A stretch of DNA of 64,000 bases from Pseudomonas sp. LFM046 (GTDB lineage Bacteria; Pseudomonadota; Gammaproteobacteria; Pseudomonadales; Pseudomonadaceae). The notes beneath the pieces are model-generated. The model saw only the letters and a program-made list of their open reading frames with translations. It did no database searches and had not been told where the DNA came from. A program made the position numbers and the translations under genes. This document shows, one piece after another, positions 1,020 to 7,758 of the stretch. Every line of letters begins with the position of its first letter. Position 1 is the first letter of the stretch. Location of the stretch: positions 4,164,770 through 4,228,769 of the forward strand of contig NZ_JYKO02000001.1 of NCBI RefSeq assembly GCF_000949385.2, written 5' to 3'.

Positions 1020-1694
1020 ATGAACAGCGCCGAGTGGAACGCCCTGTTTCCTTTCCGTTTCGGTCAAAAGTCTCAGGAACACTACCTGGCCCTGCTGCAG
1101 GCGGGAGACAGCGGACGTGGCGCCGCGGAGGACTTTGTCCACCGCCGGTTCTTCAGCGCCCACCACGCCGATATCCGCCAGTACATGCCCGAGCTGCTCA
1201 GCATGCGCAATTACCACGGTGCCCTCAGCGCCGTGACCGGCATCCGCCTTGCTGAACAGGAGCCGCTGTTCCTGGAGCAATACCTCGAAGCACCCGCCGA
1301 AGCCCTGATCGCCGGGCTGACATCCCGCCCCGTGGCAAGAAGCGAGGTGGTGGAAGTCGGCAACCTCGCGTCGATCAACGCCGGCAACGCGCGGCTGATC
1401 ATCGTTGCCGTCACCTGGCTGCTGAACCTGCGCGGCCTGGAGTGGGTGGTGTTCACCGGCTCCCCATCGCTGATCAACAGCTTCCGCCGCCTCGGCCTGG
1501 ACCCCCTGCTGCTGGGCGACGCCGACCCCGAGCGCCTGAGCTCAGGTCAGCAGGAATGGGGCACCTACTACGAGCAGAAGCCTCACGTGTACACCGGCAA
1601 CATCCGCTACGGATTCGAGCAACTGCAGCGCGCCGGCATCCTCGCTCGCCTGGGCTTTCCGGAAGACGGAGGAGCGGCGCCCCATGCAGCCTGA
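1020..1694 (+). CDS. Thermostable hemolysin family protein (PF12261), GNAT-like fold
   Basis: A 224-residue protein, the full length of the family named after the Vibrio thermostable direct-hemolysin-unrelated delta hemolysin. It has no signal peptide and no membrane segment. The centre (VGNLASINAGNARL, then WVVFTGSPSLINSFRRLGL) looks like the core of an acetyltransferase or autoinducer-synthase fold rather than a pore-former. Start at 1020 follows CGGAGGG; a longer in-frame start at 924 would add 32 residues unlike the family. It overlaps the next gene by 11 bases and heads a seven-gene operon. Enzymatic acyl transfer is my inference; haemolysis is only the family name. Confidence 0.8.
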   Translation: MNSAEWNALFPFRFGQKSQEHYLALLQAGDSGRGAAEDFVHRRFFSAHHADIRQYMPELLSMRNYHGALSAVTGIRLAEQEPLFLEQYLEAPAEALIAGLTSRPVARSEVVEVGNLASINAGNARLIIVAVTWLLNLRGLEWVVFTGSPSLINSFRRLGLDPLLLGDADPERLSSGQQEWGTYYEQKPHVYTGNIRYGFEQLQRAGILARLGFPEDGGAAPHAA

Positions 1695-3153
1695 AGCCCT
1701 GCGCGACATCCTGCGGGAGTACGCCACCCGCCTTCCCCAGCCCCTCGCCCTGCGTGGCGACACCCGCCGCTACACCTACGCCCAGTTGCTGGCCGAGGTG
1801 GAGCGGCGCGAAACCCTGCTGCGCGCCGAACCCGAAGGTGTGCTCGCCCTCGGCCTGGACAACGGCCCCGAGGCACTGCTCTGGGATCTGGCCGCACTCT
1901 TCTCCGGGCGTCCCTGCCTGACCCTGCCGCCCTTCTTCAGTCCCCAGCAGCGCACCCATTGCCTGGAGCAATGCCACGCTGCACTGGCGGTGATCGACAG
2001 GGACTACGCGGACGAACTGACCGCCGCCGGCTTCCACGCGGAGGGCCCCTTCTGGCGCCGAACCGTCAGCGGCCCCGCTGCCCTGCCCGGCGGCACTGCC
2101 AAGATCACCTACACCTCCGGGACCACCGGCCAGCCCAAGGGGGTATGCCTCGGCGCCACCGCCCTGCTGCAGGTGGCCCATGAGCTGGAAATCGCCAGCC
2201 GCGCCACCGCGCCGGCCCACTACCTGGCGGTGCTGCCCATGGCGGTCCTGCTGGAAAACCTCGGGGTCTACGCCGCGCTGCTGGCCGGCGCCTGCGTCAC
2301 CCTGCTGCCCCAACGGCAGATGGGCATCCAGGGCGCCAGCGGAGTCGACTGGCCGAAGCTGCTGGCCACCCTGGTCCTCAGCGGCGCCCAAAGCCTGATC
2401 CTGGTGCCGCAACTGCTGCTCGGCCTGGTGACCGCCATCGAGCAGGGCCACCTGAGCGCCGCACAGTTCCGCTTCGTCGCCGTGGGCGGCGCAAGGGTCT
2501 CCCCAGACTTGCTGGCCCGCGCGGCACGGGTCGGGCTGCCGGTGTTCGAAGGCTATGGCCTCTCCGAATGCGCATCGGTGGTCTGCCTCAACCGCCCCGG
2601 CACCAACCGCCCTGGCAGCGTCGGTCAGCCCCTGCCCCACGTGCAGGTCCGGTTGGCGGAAGACGGCGAAGTCGAAGTCAGCGGCTCCGCCCTGCTCGGC
2701 TACCTGGGCGAGGCGCCGTTCACCGGACGCTGGTGGCCCACCGGCGACGTGGGTGAGTTCGACGCCGATGGTTACCTGCACCTCAAGGGCCGCAAGAAAC
2801 ACCAGTTCATCACCAGCTTCGGCCGCAATGTGAACCCGGACTGGGTGGAGGCCGAGCTGACCCAGCGCGGCGTCATCGCCCAGGCCTTCGTCCACGGTGA
2901 AGGCCTGCCGGGCAACCTCGCCCTGGTCTGGCCGCTGGACCCGCAATGCGACCTGCAGACCCTGGCCGATGCCGTGGCCGGCGCCAATGCCGCGCTGCCC
3001 GACTATGCACGGATCAGGGCCTGGCACCGCCTGACCACCCCCTTCAGCAGCGCCGACGGGCTGCTCACCAGCAATGGCCGGCTGCGACGCGAGGCGATCC
3101 TCGCGCGCTACCAGGGCACCCTTCGCGAACTCGAAAACGAGGTACGACCATGA
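1684..3153 (+). CDS. AMP-dependent acyl/fatty-acid ligase of the hemolysin operon
   Basis: A 489-residue ANL-superfamily ligase, shorter than the FadD-type enzymes (about 560) elsewhere in this window. The P-loop-like A3 motif TSGTTGQPKG is at residues 144-153, GYGLSE (A5) at 290-295 and the TGD motif (A7) at 353-355. The A10 position, normally the catalytic lysine, reads SNGRLRR with Arg466 where Lys is expected. It should adenylate a carboxylic acid, perhaps passing it to CoA or to the neighbouring enzyme. It starts inside the previous gene and its TGA overlaps the next ATG (ATGA), implying translational coupling. Confidence 0.85.
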   Translation: MQPEALRDILREYATRLPQPLALRGDTRRYTYAQLLAEVERRETLLRAEPEGVLALGLDNGPEALLWDLAALFSGRPCLTLPPFFSPQQRTHCLEQCHAALAVIDRDYADELTAAGFHAEGPFWRRTVSGPAALPGGTAKITYTSGTTGQPKGVCLGATALLQVAHELEIASRATAPAHYLAVLPMAVLLENLGVYAALLAGACVTLLPQRQMGIQGASGVDWPKLLATLVLSGAQSLILVPQLLLGLVTAIEQGHLSAAQFRFVAVGGARVSPDLLARAARVGLPVFEGYGLSECASVVCLNRPGTNRPGSVGQPLPHVQVRLAEDGEVEVSGSALLGYLGEAPFTGRWWPTGDVGEFDADGYLHLKGRKKHQFITSFGRNVNPDWVEAELTQRGVIAQAFVHGEGLPGNLALVWPLDPQCDLQTLADAVAGANAALPDYARIRAWHRLTTPFSSADGLLTSNGRLRREAILARYQGTLRELENEVRP

Positions 3154-3824
3154 GTTTCTTCGAACGACTGCAAGCCGAGACCGCCGCGGAGCGGGACGCC
3201 CTGTTCAGCGTCCCGGTGATCCGCGAGGCCCTGGCGGGCCAGGTCAGCCTGGAGGGCTACCGCGCCTTCCTCGGCCAGGCCTACCACCACGTGCGCCACA
3301 CCGTGCCGCTGATGATGGCCTGCGGCGCCCGCCTGCCGTCGCGGCTGGAATGGCTGCGTGGCGCCGTCTGCGAGTACATCGAAGAAGAGTACGGCCACGA
3401 GCGCTGGATCCTCAACGACATCGCCGCCTGTGGGGGCGATGCCGAAGCCGCCAGCCGCAGCCGCCCTTCCCTGCCCATCGAACTGATGGTCGCCTACCTG
3501 TACGACCTGATCGCCCGGGGCAACCCCGTGGGCCTGTTCGGCATGGTCAACGTGCTGGAAGGCACCAGCATCGCCCTGGCCACCCAAGCCGCCGGCGCCA
3601 TCCGTGGAGGCCTCGGCCTGCCGGCGACCGCCTTCAGCTACCTGTCGTCCCATGGCGACCTGGACCAGGACCACATGGTCACCTACCGCGGCCTGATGGA
3701 CCGCCTGGAAGACGAGGACGACCAGCAGGCCGTGATTCACGCCGCCAAGGTGGTCTACCAGCTCTACACCGAGATGTTCCGCGGCCTGCCCCGCGCCGGC
3801 GAGGTGAGCCATGCGACTCGCTGA
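3150..3824 (+). CDS. Haem-oxygenase-like (TenA-like) diiron redox enzyme
   Basis: A 224-residue all-alpha protein of the iron-containing redox enzyme family (haem-oxygenase-like diiron oxidases, relatives of UndA and CADD). A complete ligand set is visible: E80-x-x-H83 on one helix, E137 in NVLEGTS, then H168, D172 and H175 in SSHGDLDQDH. Family members oxidise small substrates, including fatty acids and amino acids, with O2. Next to an acyl ligase and an SDR it plausibly acts on a free or activated acid. Start ATG overlaps the upstream stop; the next gene begins 14 bases before its end. The substrate is unknown. Confidence 0.82.
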   Translation: MSFFERLQAETAAERDALFSVPVIREALAGQVSLEGYRAFLGQAYHHVRHTVPLMMACGARLPSRLEWLRGAVCEYIEEEYGHERWILNDIAACGGDAEAASRSRPSLPIELMVAYLYDLIARGNPVGLFGMVNVLEGTSIALATQAAGAIRGGLGLPATAFSYLSSHGDLDQDHMVTYRGLMDRLEDEDDQQAVIHAAKVVYQLYTEMFRGLPRAGEVSHATR

Positions 3825-4617
3825 TTGCCGTGTCCTGCTCACTGGCGCCAGCGGCGGCATCGGCCTGGCCCTGGCCGAACAGCTCTGCGCCCGGGGTGCC
3901 CAGGTACTGGCGGTGAGCCGCCACCGCGATGCCCTGGCCGAACTGCTCCAGCACCATCCCCAGCAGTTGTCCTGGATCGGTGCCGACCTGCGCCAGGCCC
4001 AGGGACGCCAGCGGATACTGGAGGCCGCTCGCGCCATGGGCGGGATCAACGTGCTGGTGAACGCCGCCGGGGTGAACCGCTTCGCCATGCTGGAGCAGGT
4101 GGATGACGGCCAGATCGAGGAAATGCTGGCCCTCAACGTCACCGCCACCCTGCAACTGACCCGCGGCCTGCTGCCGCTGCTGCGCCAACAGCAGCACGGG
4201 CTGGTGGTCAACGTCGGCTCCATCTACGGCTCCATCGGCTACCCGGGCTACGCCGTCTACTGCGCCAGCAAGTTCGCCCTGCGCGGCTTCTCCGAAGCCC
4301 TGCGCCGCGAACTGGCGGACACCCAGGTGAACGTTCTCTACGTCGCCCCGCGCGCCACCCGCACCAGCATGAACAGCCAGGCCGCCATGGCGCTGAACGC
4401 TGAACTCAAGGTGGGTGTGGACGAGCCGGAACAGGTGGCCCGGGCGGTGATCGCCGCCGTCGAGAAAGACCTCAGTGAGCTCTACCTGGGCTGGCCGGAG
4501 AAATTCTTCGTCCGCCTCAACGGCATGCTGCCGGGCCTGGTGGACCGCGCCCTGCACAAGCAACTGCCGATCATCCGCCGCTTCAGCGCCGCCCAACACA
4601 GCAAGGACCACCCGTGA
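3811..4617 (+). CDS. Short-chain dehydrogenase/reductase
   Basis: A 268-residue classical SDR. The nucleotide-binding TGASGGIG is at residues 11-18, NAAG follows in the fourth strand, and the catalytic residues are S137, Y150 and K154 (YCASK). It probably uses NADP(H) or NAD(H) to reduce or oxidise a carbonyl or hydroxyl on the product of its operon partners. It overlaps both neighbours (14 bases upstream, a TGATG junction downstream), so it belongs tightly to the operon. Substrate not predictable. Confidence 0.88.
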   Translation: MRLADCRVLLTGASGGIGLALAEQLCARGAQVLAVSRHRDALAELLQHHPQQLSWIGADLRQAQGRQRILEAARAMGGINVLVNAAGVNRFAMLEQVDDGQIEEMLALNVTATLQLTRGLLPLLRQQQHGLVVNVGSIYGSIGYPGYAVYCASKFALRGFSEALRRELADTQVNVLYVAPRATRTSMNSQAAMALNAELKVGVDEPEQVARAVIAAVEKDLSELYLGWPEKFFVRLNGMLPGLVDRALHKQLPIIRRFSAAQHSKDHP

Positions 4618-5258
4618 TGAACAAGCTCATTAGTGCATTCGGCCTGTACCTGATTCTCAGCATCCCGGCCTGGGCCCTCGACGAGAGCGGCACCCAGCAA
4701 CTCTCGGCCATCCAGCAGCGCTGGGCAGAGATCCAGTACCAGGTGCCGGAAACGCAGCGCGAGGCCGAATTCGAGAAGCTTGCCGCCCGCAGCGGTGCCT
4801 TCACCCGCACCTCCCCCCAGGCCGCCGAGGCCTGGATCTGGCACGGCATCGTCACCAGCAGTTGGGCTGGCGCCGAAGGCGGCCTGGGTGCCCTGGGCAA
4901 GGTGAAGGACGCCCGCGCCGCCCTGGAGCGCGCCATCCAGCTCGACCCCAACGCCCTGCAGGGCTCCGCCTACACCAGCCTGGGCGCCCTCTATGACCGG
5001 GTGCCGGGCTGGCCCGTCAGCTTCGGCGACGACGAAAAGGCCGAGCAACTGCTGCGCAAAGCCCTGGAGATCAACCCGGCGGGCATCGACAGCCTGTACT
5101 TCTGGGGCGACCACCTCTATCGCCAAGGCCACCCGGAACAAGCCCGCGAAGCCCTGCTCAAGGCCAAGGCCGCCGCGCCGCGCCCCGGCCGTGAACTGGC
5201 CGACCAGGGCCGTCGCCAGGAAATCGATGCTTTACTGCAGGAAATCCAGAAAAAATAA
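4617..5258 (+). CDS. Exported TPR-repeat protein
   Basis: A 213-residue protein with a signal peptide of about 21 residues (hydrophobic LISAFGLYLILSIPAWA). The rest contains TPR-like helices: residues around 95-125 (LERAIQLDPNALQGSAY) and 140-165 (LLRKALEINPAGIDSLYF). It is probably a periplasmic scaffold or binding protein. A GTG at 4614 is also in frame, but the ATG at 4617, overlapping the upstream stop as TGATG, is more natural. It sits between the biosynthetic genes and the two-component genes and might link product to sensor; that is inference. Confidence 0.75.
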   Translation: MNKLISAFGLYLILSIPAWALDESGTQQLSAIQQRWAEIQYQVPETQREAEFEKLAARSGAFTRTSPQAAEAWIWHGIVTSSWAGAEGGLGALGKVKDARAALERAIQLDPNALQGSAYTSLGALYDRVPGWPVSFGDDEKAEQLLRKALEINPAGIDSLYFWGDHLYRQGHPEQAREALLKAKAAAPRPGRELADQGRRQEIDALLQEIQKK

Positions 5259-5273
5259 GGCAACCGCAACCTC

Positions 5274-5936
5274 ATGCGACTGCTCCTCGTCGAAGACGAC
5301 AACGCCCTGGGGGCTGGTGTGCGCGCCGGTCTGCGCCAGGAGGGCTACACCATCGATTGGCTGATGGACGGTGCCAGCGCCCTGCACGCCCTGCAGACCG
5401 AATCGTTCGACCTTGCGATCCTCGACCTCGGCCTGCCACGCCTGGACGGCATCCAGGTGCTCCAGCAGCTGCGCGCCGGCGGCTCCACCCTGCCGGTGCT
5501 GGTGCTCACGGCCCGCGATGCCACCGAAGACCGCATCACGGGCCTGGACGCGGGCGCCGACGATTACCTGGTCAAGCCCTTCGACCTCAATGAACTCAAG
5601 GCCCGCCTGCGCGCCTTGCTGCGGCGCAGCGCTGGCCGGCCCCAGGTGCTGATCGAGCACGCCGGCGTGGTGCTCGACCCGGCCAGCCAGCAGGTCAGCT
5701 ACCAGGGCAACCCGGTGGCCCTGACGCCCAAGGAGTACCAGCTGCTCCATGAACTGCTCTCGCAACCGGGCAAGGTGCTCACCCGGGAACGCCTGGTGCA
5801 GACCCTCTACGGCTGGGACGAGGAAGCCGAGAGCAACACCCTGGAAGTGCATATCCACCACCTGCGCAAGAAGCTCTCCAGCGACCTCATCCGCACCGTG
5901 CGTGGCATCGGCTACCTGGTGGACGGCCATCCATGA
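5274..5936 (+). CDS. OmpR-family response regulator (QseB/PmrA-like)
   Basis: 220 residues: receiver domain 1-115 with the acidic pair D8-D9, phospho-acceptor D51 and conserved K101, then a winged-helix DNA-binding domain (LTPKEYQLLHELLSQPGKVLTRERL ending TVRGIGYLVDG). It follows the TPR gene by 15 bases and its stop overlaps the kinase start (ATGA), so the pair is co-transcribed with the hemolysin/ligase genes, perhaps controlling them. Confidence 0.92.
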   Translation: MRLLLVEDDNALGAGVRAGLRQEGYTIDWLMDGASALHALQTESFDLAILDLGLPRLDGIQVLQQLRAGGSTLPVLVLTARDATEDRITGLDAGADDYLVKPFDLNELKARLRALLRRSAGRPQVLIEHAGVVLDPASQQVSYQGNPVALTPKEYQLLHELLSQPGKVLTRERLVQTLYGWDEEAESNTLEVHIHHLRKKLSSDLIRTVRGIGYLVDGHP

Positions 5937-7309
5937 CCTCATTGCGCGACCGCACCCTGTGGCTGGTGATGGTCCTGCTGCTGATCGGCACCCTGCTCAT
6001 CGTCTACATCAACTACCGCGACAGCAGCCACGAGGTGGAAGAAATCTACGATGCTCAGCTGGCGCAGAACGCGCGCCTGCTGCTGGGGGTGATGCGCATG
6101 CCGCTGGCCAGCGCCGAGCGCGATGCGCTCTACCGGGCCTTCAACGAGGCCCTGAGCCACGCCGAGCCACGCAAGATCGGCCACCCCTACGAAAGCAAAC
6201 TGGCCTTCCACGTCTGGAATCGTGAGGGCGACAGCCTGGTGCAATCGGCCAGCGCCCCGGCGTTCGCCTCCGTCCCGCAGAAGCCCGGTTTCCATGACGT
6301 CCAGCTGGGCGGCCACTACTGGCGTGGCTTCGCCCTGCCGGACACCGAACAGGGCCTGCTGATCTGGGTAGGCGAGCGCTCCGACGTGCGCCAGGACCTG
6401 GTGCAGCGCATCGTGCGCCACACCCTGGTGCCGAATCTGGTAGGCGTCCTCATCCTCGCCGCCCTCGTCTGGCTGGCCATCGGCTGGGGCCTGAAACCCC
6501 TGCAGAACATGGCGCGGGTGATCCGCAGCCGCCACGCCGACTCCCTTGCGCCCCTGCAGATCGTGCCGCTGCCCAAGGAACTGGAACCGATGCAGGCCGC
6601 AATCAACCGTCTTCTGGGGCAGATCGAGCAGATGCTCCAGCGCGAGCGTCGCTTTATCGGCGACGCCGCCCACGAGATGCGCACCCCGCTGGCGGTGCTG
6701 CGCCTGCACGCGCAGAACGCCCTGGAGGCCACGGCGGAGGACCAGCGCACCGAGGCCCTGCAATTCCTCACCGTGGGCGTCGACCGACTGACCCGTGTGG
6801 TCCACCAGTTGCTCACCATGGCGCGGGTGGAACCGGAACTGGCCCGGCAGAAATGGCAGCCGCTGGACCTGGGGACCGTTGTCCGCGAGCACCTGGCGGA
6901 GCTCACGCCACTGCTGCTGGACAAGGGCCTGGAACTGGCCCTGGAAGTGGCCGAGGGCGACTTCCACACCACCAGCGACGCCGCCGCCATCGGCATTGCC
7001 CTGCAGAACCTGGTGACCAACGCCACCAACTTCTCCCCACCGGGCGGCGAAGTGAAAGTGAGCCTGCTGGAGGACGGCCGGGACGCCTGCATCGTGCGGG
7101 TGGAGGATCAGGGTCCGGGCATCGATGAGACTCTACAAGAGCGCCTGTTCGAGCGCTTCTACAGCCAGGACAACCCCCAAGGTGCCGGCCTGGGCCTGGC
7201 CATCGTCCAGATGATCGCCAGCCGCCTGGGCGGCAGCATCAGCCTGCGCAACCGCGAAGAAGGCGGGCTATGCGCCGACCTGAAACTGCCCAGGCGGGTG
7301 TTGAAGTGA
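5933..7309 (+). CDS. Sensor histidine kinase (QseC/PmrB-like)
   Basis: A 458-residue inner-membrane kinase. TM1 is at about residues 9-26 and TM2 at 168-187, enclosing a periplasmic sensor of about 140 residues. A HAMP-like linker leads to the H-box (AAHEMRTPL, H247), the N-box (NLVTNATNFSP), DQGPGID and GAGLGLAIV. It is the cognate kinase of the regulator just upstream. The periplasmic ligand is not recognisable; the operon suggests a small molecule made by the neighbouring enzymes, which is inference. Confidence 0.92.
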   Translation: MTSLRDRTLWLVMVLLLIGTLLIVYINYRDSSHEVEEIYDAQLAQNARLLLGVMRMPLASAERDALYRAFNEALSHAEPRKIGHPYESKLAFHVWNREGDSLVQSASAPAFASVPQKPGFHDVQLGGHYWRGFALPDTEQGLLIWVGERSDVRQDLVQRIVRHTLVPNLVGVLILAALVWLAIGWGLKPLQNMARVIRSRHADSLAPLQIVPLPKELEPMQAAINRLLGQIEQMLQRERRFIGDAAHEMRTPLAVLRLHAQNALEATAEDQRTEALQFLTVGVDRLTRVVHQLLTMARVEPELARQKWQPLDLGTVVREHLAELTPLLLDKGLELALEVAEGDFHTTSDAAAIGIALQNLVTNATNFSPPGGEVKVSLLEDGRDACIVRVEDQGPGIDETLQERLFERFYSQDNPQGAGLGLAIVQMIASRLGGSISLRNREEGGLCADLKLPRRVLK

Positions 7310-7372
7310 TTGTGGGGTGGCGCCCCTAGGGAGCCGAGGTGCCCCTGCCCCTCAGTTCCTGCGTCTGGTCCA

Positions 7373-7721
7373 CCAGCCAATTGCGGAGTATCCGCATCTC
7401 CATCGAGTCGGCCATCGCCGAAGGCTCCGACGCTGTGATCCGCATCGGTGAGCTGAGCGATAATCGCTTGATCGCCGGCAAGCTGAGCGAGCACCGCCGC
7501 ATGCTTTGCGTGCCTCCGGACTATCTCGCTCAGCACGGTGCACCAGGCACGCCGGCCGGCTGGTACGAGTGCTGCCGGACGGGTTGCTGGGTGGCAGCGA
7601 AGGTGGCGTCTACCTGGTACGCCCATCGGCCAGGTTCTCCCCCGCAACAACCCTCGCATTCAAAAGCTGGATCGAAAGCAGATTTGCCGGCGGCCCGCCC
7701 TGGTCACCTCTCCAGCCCTGA
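7373..7721 (+). pseudogene. Remnant of a LysR-type regulator (effector domain only)
   Basis: One frame (about 7373-7550) reads an effector-domain stretch, IRIGELSDNRLIAGKL then EHRRMLCVPPDYLAQHG. A different frame from about 7550 reads GRLVRVLP, then VYLVRPSARFSP and a typical C-terminal end. The helix-turn-helix half is gone, an internal part of the effector domain of perhaps 60 codons is deleted at about 7550, and the two halves are out of frame. This is a dead gene between the two-component genes and the RarD-like transporter. Confidence 0.7.
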
Positions 7722-7758
7722 CCGCCATCCCATAACCTGATTGCTTGCGGAGGCCTTT

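Follow-up and report, generated by a model that had tools for sequence, protein, structure and literature searches.

A thermostable hemolysin family gene of Pseudomonas is probably misnamed and leads a conserved operon for a likely acyltransferase pathway, probably activated by a two-component sensor of its own

RESULTS

Gene organization of the operon

We analyzed a stretch of 64,000 nucleotides from Pseudomonas sp. LFM046 (contig NZ_JYKO02000001.1, positions 4,164,770 to 4,228,769), called the window below, in which seven genes, A to G, occupy positions 1020 to 7309, all on the plus strand and read in one direction. Gene A (1020 to 1694) encodes a 224-residue protein of the T_hemolysin family (PF12261) that is a predicted acyltransferase, and B (1684 to 3153) a 489-residue AMP-forming acyl ligase with the Pfam domains AMP-binding and AMP-binding_C_3. 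These are followed by a heme-oxygenase-like diiron oxidase of the Haem_oxygenas_2 family (C, 3150 to 3824), a short-chain dehydrogenase/reductase (SDR) of the adh_short family (D, 3811 to 4617), and a tetratricopeptide repeat (TPR) protein that is probably exported (E, 4614 to 5258). The last two genes encode an OmpR-type response regulator of the PmrA/QseB/BqsR kind with Response_reg and Trans_reg_C domains (F, 5274 to 5936) and a sensor histidine kinase with a 2CSK_N-HisKA-HATPase architecture (G, 5933 to 7309). The junctions from A to G are, in order, overlaps of 11, 4, 14, and 4 bases, a gap of 15 bases, and an overlap of 4. Coordinates and families thus agreed with the original prediction, made from the letters of the window, of a seven-gene operon whose genes are made together; judged by this spacing, a single transcription unit is supported. 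GGAGG precedes the start of A at 1020; an alternative, longer ATG frame for A, from 924, would cover a putative operator at positions 955 to 971.

Fold and family of the lead protein

Protein A matched T_hemolysin at 210.7 bits (cut-off, 27), and no signal peptide was seen in it by eye, as the original prediction had stated. An acyltransferase-like core had also been claimed, and comparison of the predicted structure with LuxI and GNAT proteins bore this out, giving a LuxI-like GNAT fold that is also the fold of FeeM. The model supports a GNAT-like, LuxI-like acyltransferase that would share its fold with the acyl-homoserine-lactone synthases LuxI and LasI and the N-acyl amino acid synthase FeeM. 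Unlike these, A has an oxidase and an SDR for company and did not match the LuxI family (PF00765), which had no match anywhere in the host genome. The LuxI signature residues (R, F, W, E, D, D, and E..R, invariant in eight LuxI proteins) were not found in A, which by eye reads E-V-G-N where LuxI reads E-L-S-R, and a sequence search among solved structures returned a single chance match (E value, 1.5). Membership of A in the LuxI family was rejected because signature residues and profile similarity are absent.

Proteins B to E

The AMP-binding domain of B contains a P-loop and the core ANL motifs. Protein C scored 107.1 bits against Haem_oxygenas_2 (cut-off, 28.9), and its six presumed metal ligands (E80, H83, E137, H168, D172, and H175), placed by what we take to be the ligand pattern of heme-oxygenase-like diiron oxidases, were kept in all 113 sequences compared. 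The nearest solved chains were 3dde (85 bits), CADD (CT610), 4-aminobenzoate synthase, and MboA; C shares family and ligand residues with 3dde, CADD, and MboA, UndA being a further oxidase of this kind, but forms a separate subfamily, its members scoring at least 291 bits and the next matches at most 145. Protein D scored 397 bits (cut-off, 238) against the NCBIfam SDR model NF006565, which names no substrate. The families therefore match the roles first proposed for B, C, and D, and activation, O2 chemistry, and redox are supported as their likely functions. B and C are fused into one protein in six loci (L023, L100, L105, L106, L115, and L117; loci and genomes are labeled L and G), and a seventh long B occurs in L193. 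Protein E has a well-conserved sequence and, by eye, a signal-like N terminus; designed TPR proteins aside, its best solved relative is the sterol-binding BstC (E value, 1.6e-10), and it also resembles many other TPR proteins.

Distribution and gene order

The T_hemolysin family was found in one copy each in 18/18 genomes of the genus, in 140 of 248 genomes in a sample of the family, and in 78 of 398 in a sample of the phylum, 77 of these above the cut-off; the genome below it (G544) was excluded from later counts. A profile of the oxidase matched 83 of the 398 at an E value of 1e-20, 77 of them with at least 291 bits; the remaining six, at no more than 145 bits, were set aside. The hemolysin gene was also present in 75 of these 77 oxidase-bearing genomes, and 70 of the 77 oxidase genes shared its strand and lay no more than 3.5 kb away. 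For four of the seven unpaired oxidases (G461, G476, G425, and G481), the contig stops within or just past B. Two genomes (G045 and G493) had the hemolysin gene but not this oxidase, and two others (G282 and G307) had an additional stand-alone copy. Stand-alone hemolysin-family genes were also seen in Mariprofundaceae-group genomes (L081, L082, L083, L120, and L152); three of them (L082, L083, and L120) adjoin housekeeping or unrelated genes, and the neighbors of stand-alone copies (RNase J, FtsK, LolA, MreBC, and a pentapeptide protein) gave no functional lead. One genus of that group has C-D-E without A and B upstream (L214 to L216), with A by itself on a different contig (L222 and L223), and a relative of this genus has a lone A (L221), with the oxidase not found there.

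Gene order was mapped in 127 loci, picked for spread and not at random, with F and G counted at 160 bits or more. The Mariprofundaceae group comprised the named loci L081 to L085 and the families f39, which includes contigs identical to named Mariprofundaceae ones, and f59, our own grouping. The order A-B-C-D-E recurred in gamma-, beta-, and alphaproteobacteria and in Mariprofundaceae, and also on a Vibrio parahaemolyticus plasmid; this recurrence and the co-occurrence of A and C are more than chance would give. Among 66 Pseudomonadaceae loci, 61 had B-C-D, and F and G were present in 60 of the 61; in the exception (L125), a kinase was matched only in fragments (7067 to 7290), beside an otherwise complete A-E. 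The Mariprofundaceae group contributed 22 loci, 14 with B-C-D, and in none of the 14 was the pair detected; ten of these show at least 10 kb downstream and about 5 kb upstream, and four are cut nearer. Of the other 39 loci, 33 had B-C-D and one had B-C-E. Both F and G were found in 15, three more (L103, L107, and L138) have G at the fragment edge with the kinase alone in view, and no pair was detectable in 15 of the 33.

Overall, the pair accompanies 78 of 108 fetched B-C-D loci, counting the three with only the kinase in view. Most of these loci thus have the regulators, the opposite of what would have spoken against the original prediction, though 61 of the 108 come from Pseudomonadaceae. 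The position of the pair varied: after E, divergent upstream (L097 and L100), upstream in the same direction (L137), or reversed downstream (L020 and L101). From its placement and its absences, the usual core is therefore A-B-C-D-E, and F-G is a frequent partner outside the chemistry. The Mariprofundaceae-group loci led us to reject a pathway unable to exist without the kinase.

The sensor pair and the upstream repeat

Among NCBIfam models F scored best with PmrA (256 bits; cut-off, 330) and reached 244 bits with QseB (cut-off, 345), both below the equivalog cut-offs, and no paralogue in the host genome exceeds 49% identity to F. In G, two hydrophobic stretches, judged by eye, enclose about 130 residues, close to the 140 or so first proposed, and this periplasmic domain is of the ordinary 2CSK_N type. 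G carries an HExxE motif (H33, E34, and E37) that fits the pattern (R/H)ExxE and is missing from its nearest paralogue in the host genome; passages of PMC12666569 describe a motif of this type in iron-sensing kinases.

The putative operator at 955 to 971, on the plus strand, is a PmrA/BqsR-type direct repeat, CTTCAG-N5-CTTAAG, that matches 11 of 12 consensus positions. We scored YTTAAK-N5-YTTAAK, which we take to be the consensus, in about 220 bases upstream of A, counting 11 of 12 or better as a match. Upstream matches were found in 46 of 62 Pseudomonadaceae loci with the oxidase and 1 of 5 without it, in 18/18 other loci with the kinase and 7 of 21 without it, and in 1 of 22 of the Mariprofundaceae group; by hand count, the repeat immediately precedes the hemolysin gene in 15 of the 18 genomes of the genus. 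The pair resembles BqsRS/CarRS and PmrAB in its OmpR-type regulator, its TTAAG-N6-TTAAG-like operator, and the (R/H)ExxE of its sensor, but differs from them in being tied to a biosynthetic operon and in scoring under the PmrA and QseB equivalog cut-offs. Adjacency and the shared operator-like repeat support the link between pathway and pair that had been proposed; F likely controls the operon through the repeat, and Fe2+ or cations are a plausible input to G.

With up to one mismatch allowed, the host genome has the repeat in a single further place, before a BOF (OB-fold) gene that neighbors an SdiA-regulated one. Three tandem CTTAAG-type half-sites lie there (L200, 4337 to 4364; G000 contig 1, about 165,336 to 165,363), and by eye most genomes of the genus have a similar sequence, the flanking gene having been checked in the host genome. 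Pseudomonas aeruginosa PA14_04180 is, we presume, the OB-fold gene carO. According to passages of PMC4682146, PA14_04180 is the gene most induced by BqsR and carries a cluster of such pentamers.

Genomic company

Cytochrome b561-type genes occurred near the operon in 21 loci, namely, 19 Pseudomonadaceae, Pantoea, and a Vibrio plasmid (family checked in one member), and VIT proteins in Pantoea and Variovorax. A cupredoxin and two unnamed proteins lie beside the kinase in seven loci (L096, L103, L104, L107, L109, L137, and L138), a conserved, Alteromonadales-type module checked with Pfam in L104 and L107; Pfam gave no name to its membrane-type protein of about 256 residues or its exported-looking one of about 232 residues, and an FTR1-like identity suggested by eye for the former was not confirmed. 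Genes for a TonB receptor, an extracytoplasmic function (ECF) sigma factor, and FecR adjoin the operon in four loci, including that of Novosphingobium (known there from annotation, with Pfam run on one receptor). Genes of the GT2, VTT, and PMT families, presumably ArnC-, DedA-, and ArnT-like, occur near it in L100, L103, L107, and L138. Mariprofundaceae, among the operon hosts, are iron oxidizers. These neighbors and hosts support, without proving, a connection to iron or cation stress.

In Streptomyces and some Pseudomonadaceae, A and B are found with genes for TauD, AurF, an aminotransferase, or an amidase. Six loci have a hemolysin-family gene and an AMP ligase with no diiron oxidase (L022, L025, L123, L124, L126, and L127); a TauD dioxygenase lies near A-B in all of these except L123, and AurF, an aminotransferase, or an amidase in some. 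This company suggests a general module of acyl transfer and ligation that is paired with differing oxygenases. In the window itself, an adenosine-specific kinase family (PF04008) gene lies upstream of the operon (128 to 646); on its 3' side, frames that by eye resemble a decayed LysR-type regulator (7339 to 7721) precede an EamA-type transporter-like gene at 7741.

DISCUSSION

The operon is real and conserved across many lineages, and its lead protein is probably misnamed. An acyltransferase pathway is likely, and so, in many bacteria, is activation of the operon by a two-component sensor of its own. The full account that we put forward, on balance and with some reserve, is that A to E are a five-protein pathway for a fatty-acyl-derived compound, with F-G as its own regulatory pair in this lineage, gated by Fe2+ or other cations. 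What the computations show is the gene order with its conservation, the predicted fold of A, the conserved metal-ligand residues of C, and the repeat with its tie to F-G. The substrates, step order, product, and Fe2+ input that we infer are as follows. B would adenylate an acyl chain, and C, in an O2-dependent reaction, would oxidize the activated chain or its conjugate. A, with its predicted LuxI/FeeM fold, would transfer an acyl group onto a nucleophile such as a small amine; D might reduce or oxidize a carbonyl or alcohol, and E could serve as a periplasmic carrier of a hydrophobic ligand. The input to G would be a divalent cation, with Fe2+ the likeliest, or an envelope stress of a related kind, and F would then activate the operon via the CTTAAG-type repeat. 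The probable product is an acyl conjugate that acts on membranes, and this would account for the hemolysis reported for the Vibrio homologue.

Several observations weigh against this account. A and C are not always linked, because in one Mariprofundaceae-group genus (G405, G435, and G507) C-D-E stand together with no A or B in the 2.6 to 4.7 kb fetched upstream, and A is alone on a separate contig. Full adenylation by B is uncertain because the position that we take to be that of the A10 catalytic lysine is Arg in 108 of 121 B sequences, among them that of the window (Arg466), with Lys in 8, whereas 5 have another residue or a gap; a few of these 121 ligases are not of the operon type. A profile comparison of A with LuxI proteins gave a nonsignificant probability of 0.9%. 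The HExxE motif may be common among QseC-type kinases. The repeat was no commoner genome-wide than a reversed control, with 3 matches versus 5 in the host genome and 60 versus 73 summed over the 18 genomes, so that its support comes only from position and conservation; the upstream counts had mononucleotide shuffles (30 per region) as their control, and the loci are related. Since a second repeat precedes the BOF gene, another regulator could bind both. In Vibrio cholerae, where vca1110 belongs to a similar locus, passages of PMC12208996 report that acs1 and prpE mutants acted like the vca1110 mutant, so the vca1110 effect is not specific.

Among the alternatives, an envelope lipid (an aminolipid or similar) kept in the membrane against cationic or iron stress, with F-G as a PmrAB-like switch, is the one we would entertain tentatively. 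The PmrA score of F, the likeness of E to BstC, and the GT2, VTT, and PMT neighbors fit it, but these neighbors occur in four loci only, E also resembles many other TPR proteins, and the operon holds no further lipid head-group gene. It is improbable that T_hemolysin proteins, from Pseudomonas to Mariprofundaceae, add to the acyl-signal synthases of LuxI fold another class, spread over the phylum, whose oxidized acyl product would be an Fe2+-gated intercellular signal or metal-binding lipid. The original prediction held that the product may be a signal sensed by the operon's own kinase; this was the part of its interpretation that did not stand, whereas the acyltransferase fold, the B-C-D roles, the transcription unit, and the sensor link did. 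A circuit in which A to D make a diffusible acyl signal for G is possible but not favored: the predicted fold of A and the pair beside nearly every Pseudomonadaceae pathway speak for it, but pathways with no detectable pair in the Mariprofundaceae group and elsewhere, and the ordinary domain of G, argue against it, and the putative cation-type operator, the HExxE motif, and the genes and hosts around the operon suggest a cation or Fe2+ input instead. An acylated, metallophore-like compound is similarly unlikely; TonB receptor, ECF sigma factor, and FecR genes, VIT proteins, the cupredoxin, and iron-oxidizing hosts would suit it, but the operon has neither exporter nor uptake receptor, and induction by Fe2+ would reverse siderophore control. 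That A is a true protein hemolysin served by the remaining genes is very improbable, since against the family name and the hemolytic activity of the V. cholerae protein, found in lysates and supernatants with no signal peptide according to a second-hand account in passages of PMC4046660, stand its predicted GNAT/LuxI-type fold, the lack of a visible signal peptide, its usual ligase and oxygenase company, and the TauD oxygenases found with A-B in Streptomyces and some Pseudomonadaceae; on signal peptide, fold, and gene context, a secreted pore-forming hemolysin was rejected.

A membrane-active product of the proposed acyltransferase pathway would fit that lysate and supernatant hemolysis. The V. 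cholerae dth region (VCA1102 to VCA1111; dth, VCA1111; DthC, VCA1110) appears to be a locus of this kind: passages of PMC12208996 and PMC6474259 place the hemolysin beside an acyl ligase, as here, and a table row of PMC8357300 labels the cluster "fatty acid biosynthesis, heme biliverdin, thermostable hemolysin." The comparison is by description, not sequence, and these passages assign the region no pathway, fold, or regulator. In Serratia 39006, passages of PMC4046660 describe or1352 to or1355 as one putative operon with a Delta-VPH homologue, an AMP ligase, and an iron oxygenase; it differs, as described there, in having a TauD oxygenase in place of the diiron oxidase, a Bcr/CflA exporter, and no SDR, TPR protein, or sensor pair. 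The passages retrieved by searches for thermostable hemolysin, its family, the VCA locus tags, and oxidase neighborhoods assigned this operon no pathway.

Genome papers list the T_hemolysin family as a virulence hemolysin, examples being passages of PMC5592226 and PMC6474259. The present analysis recasts this family as a probable acyltransferase with a testable pathway. If this is true, finding an A gene should not count as finding a toxin, and many Proteobacteria make a conserved acyl compound that has yet to be isolated.

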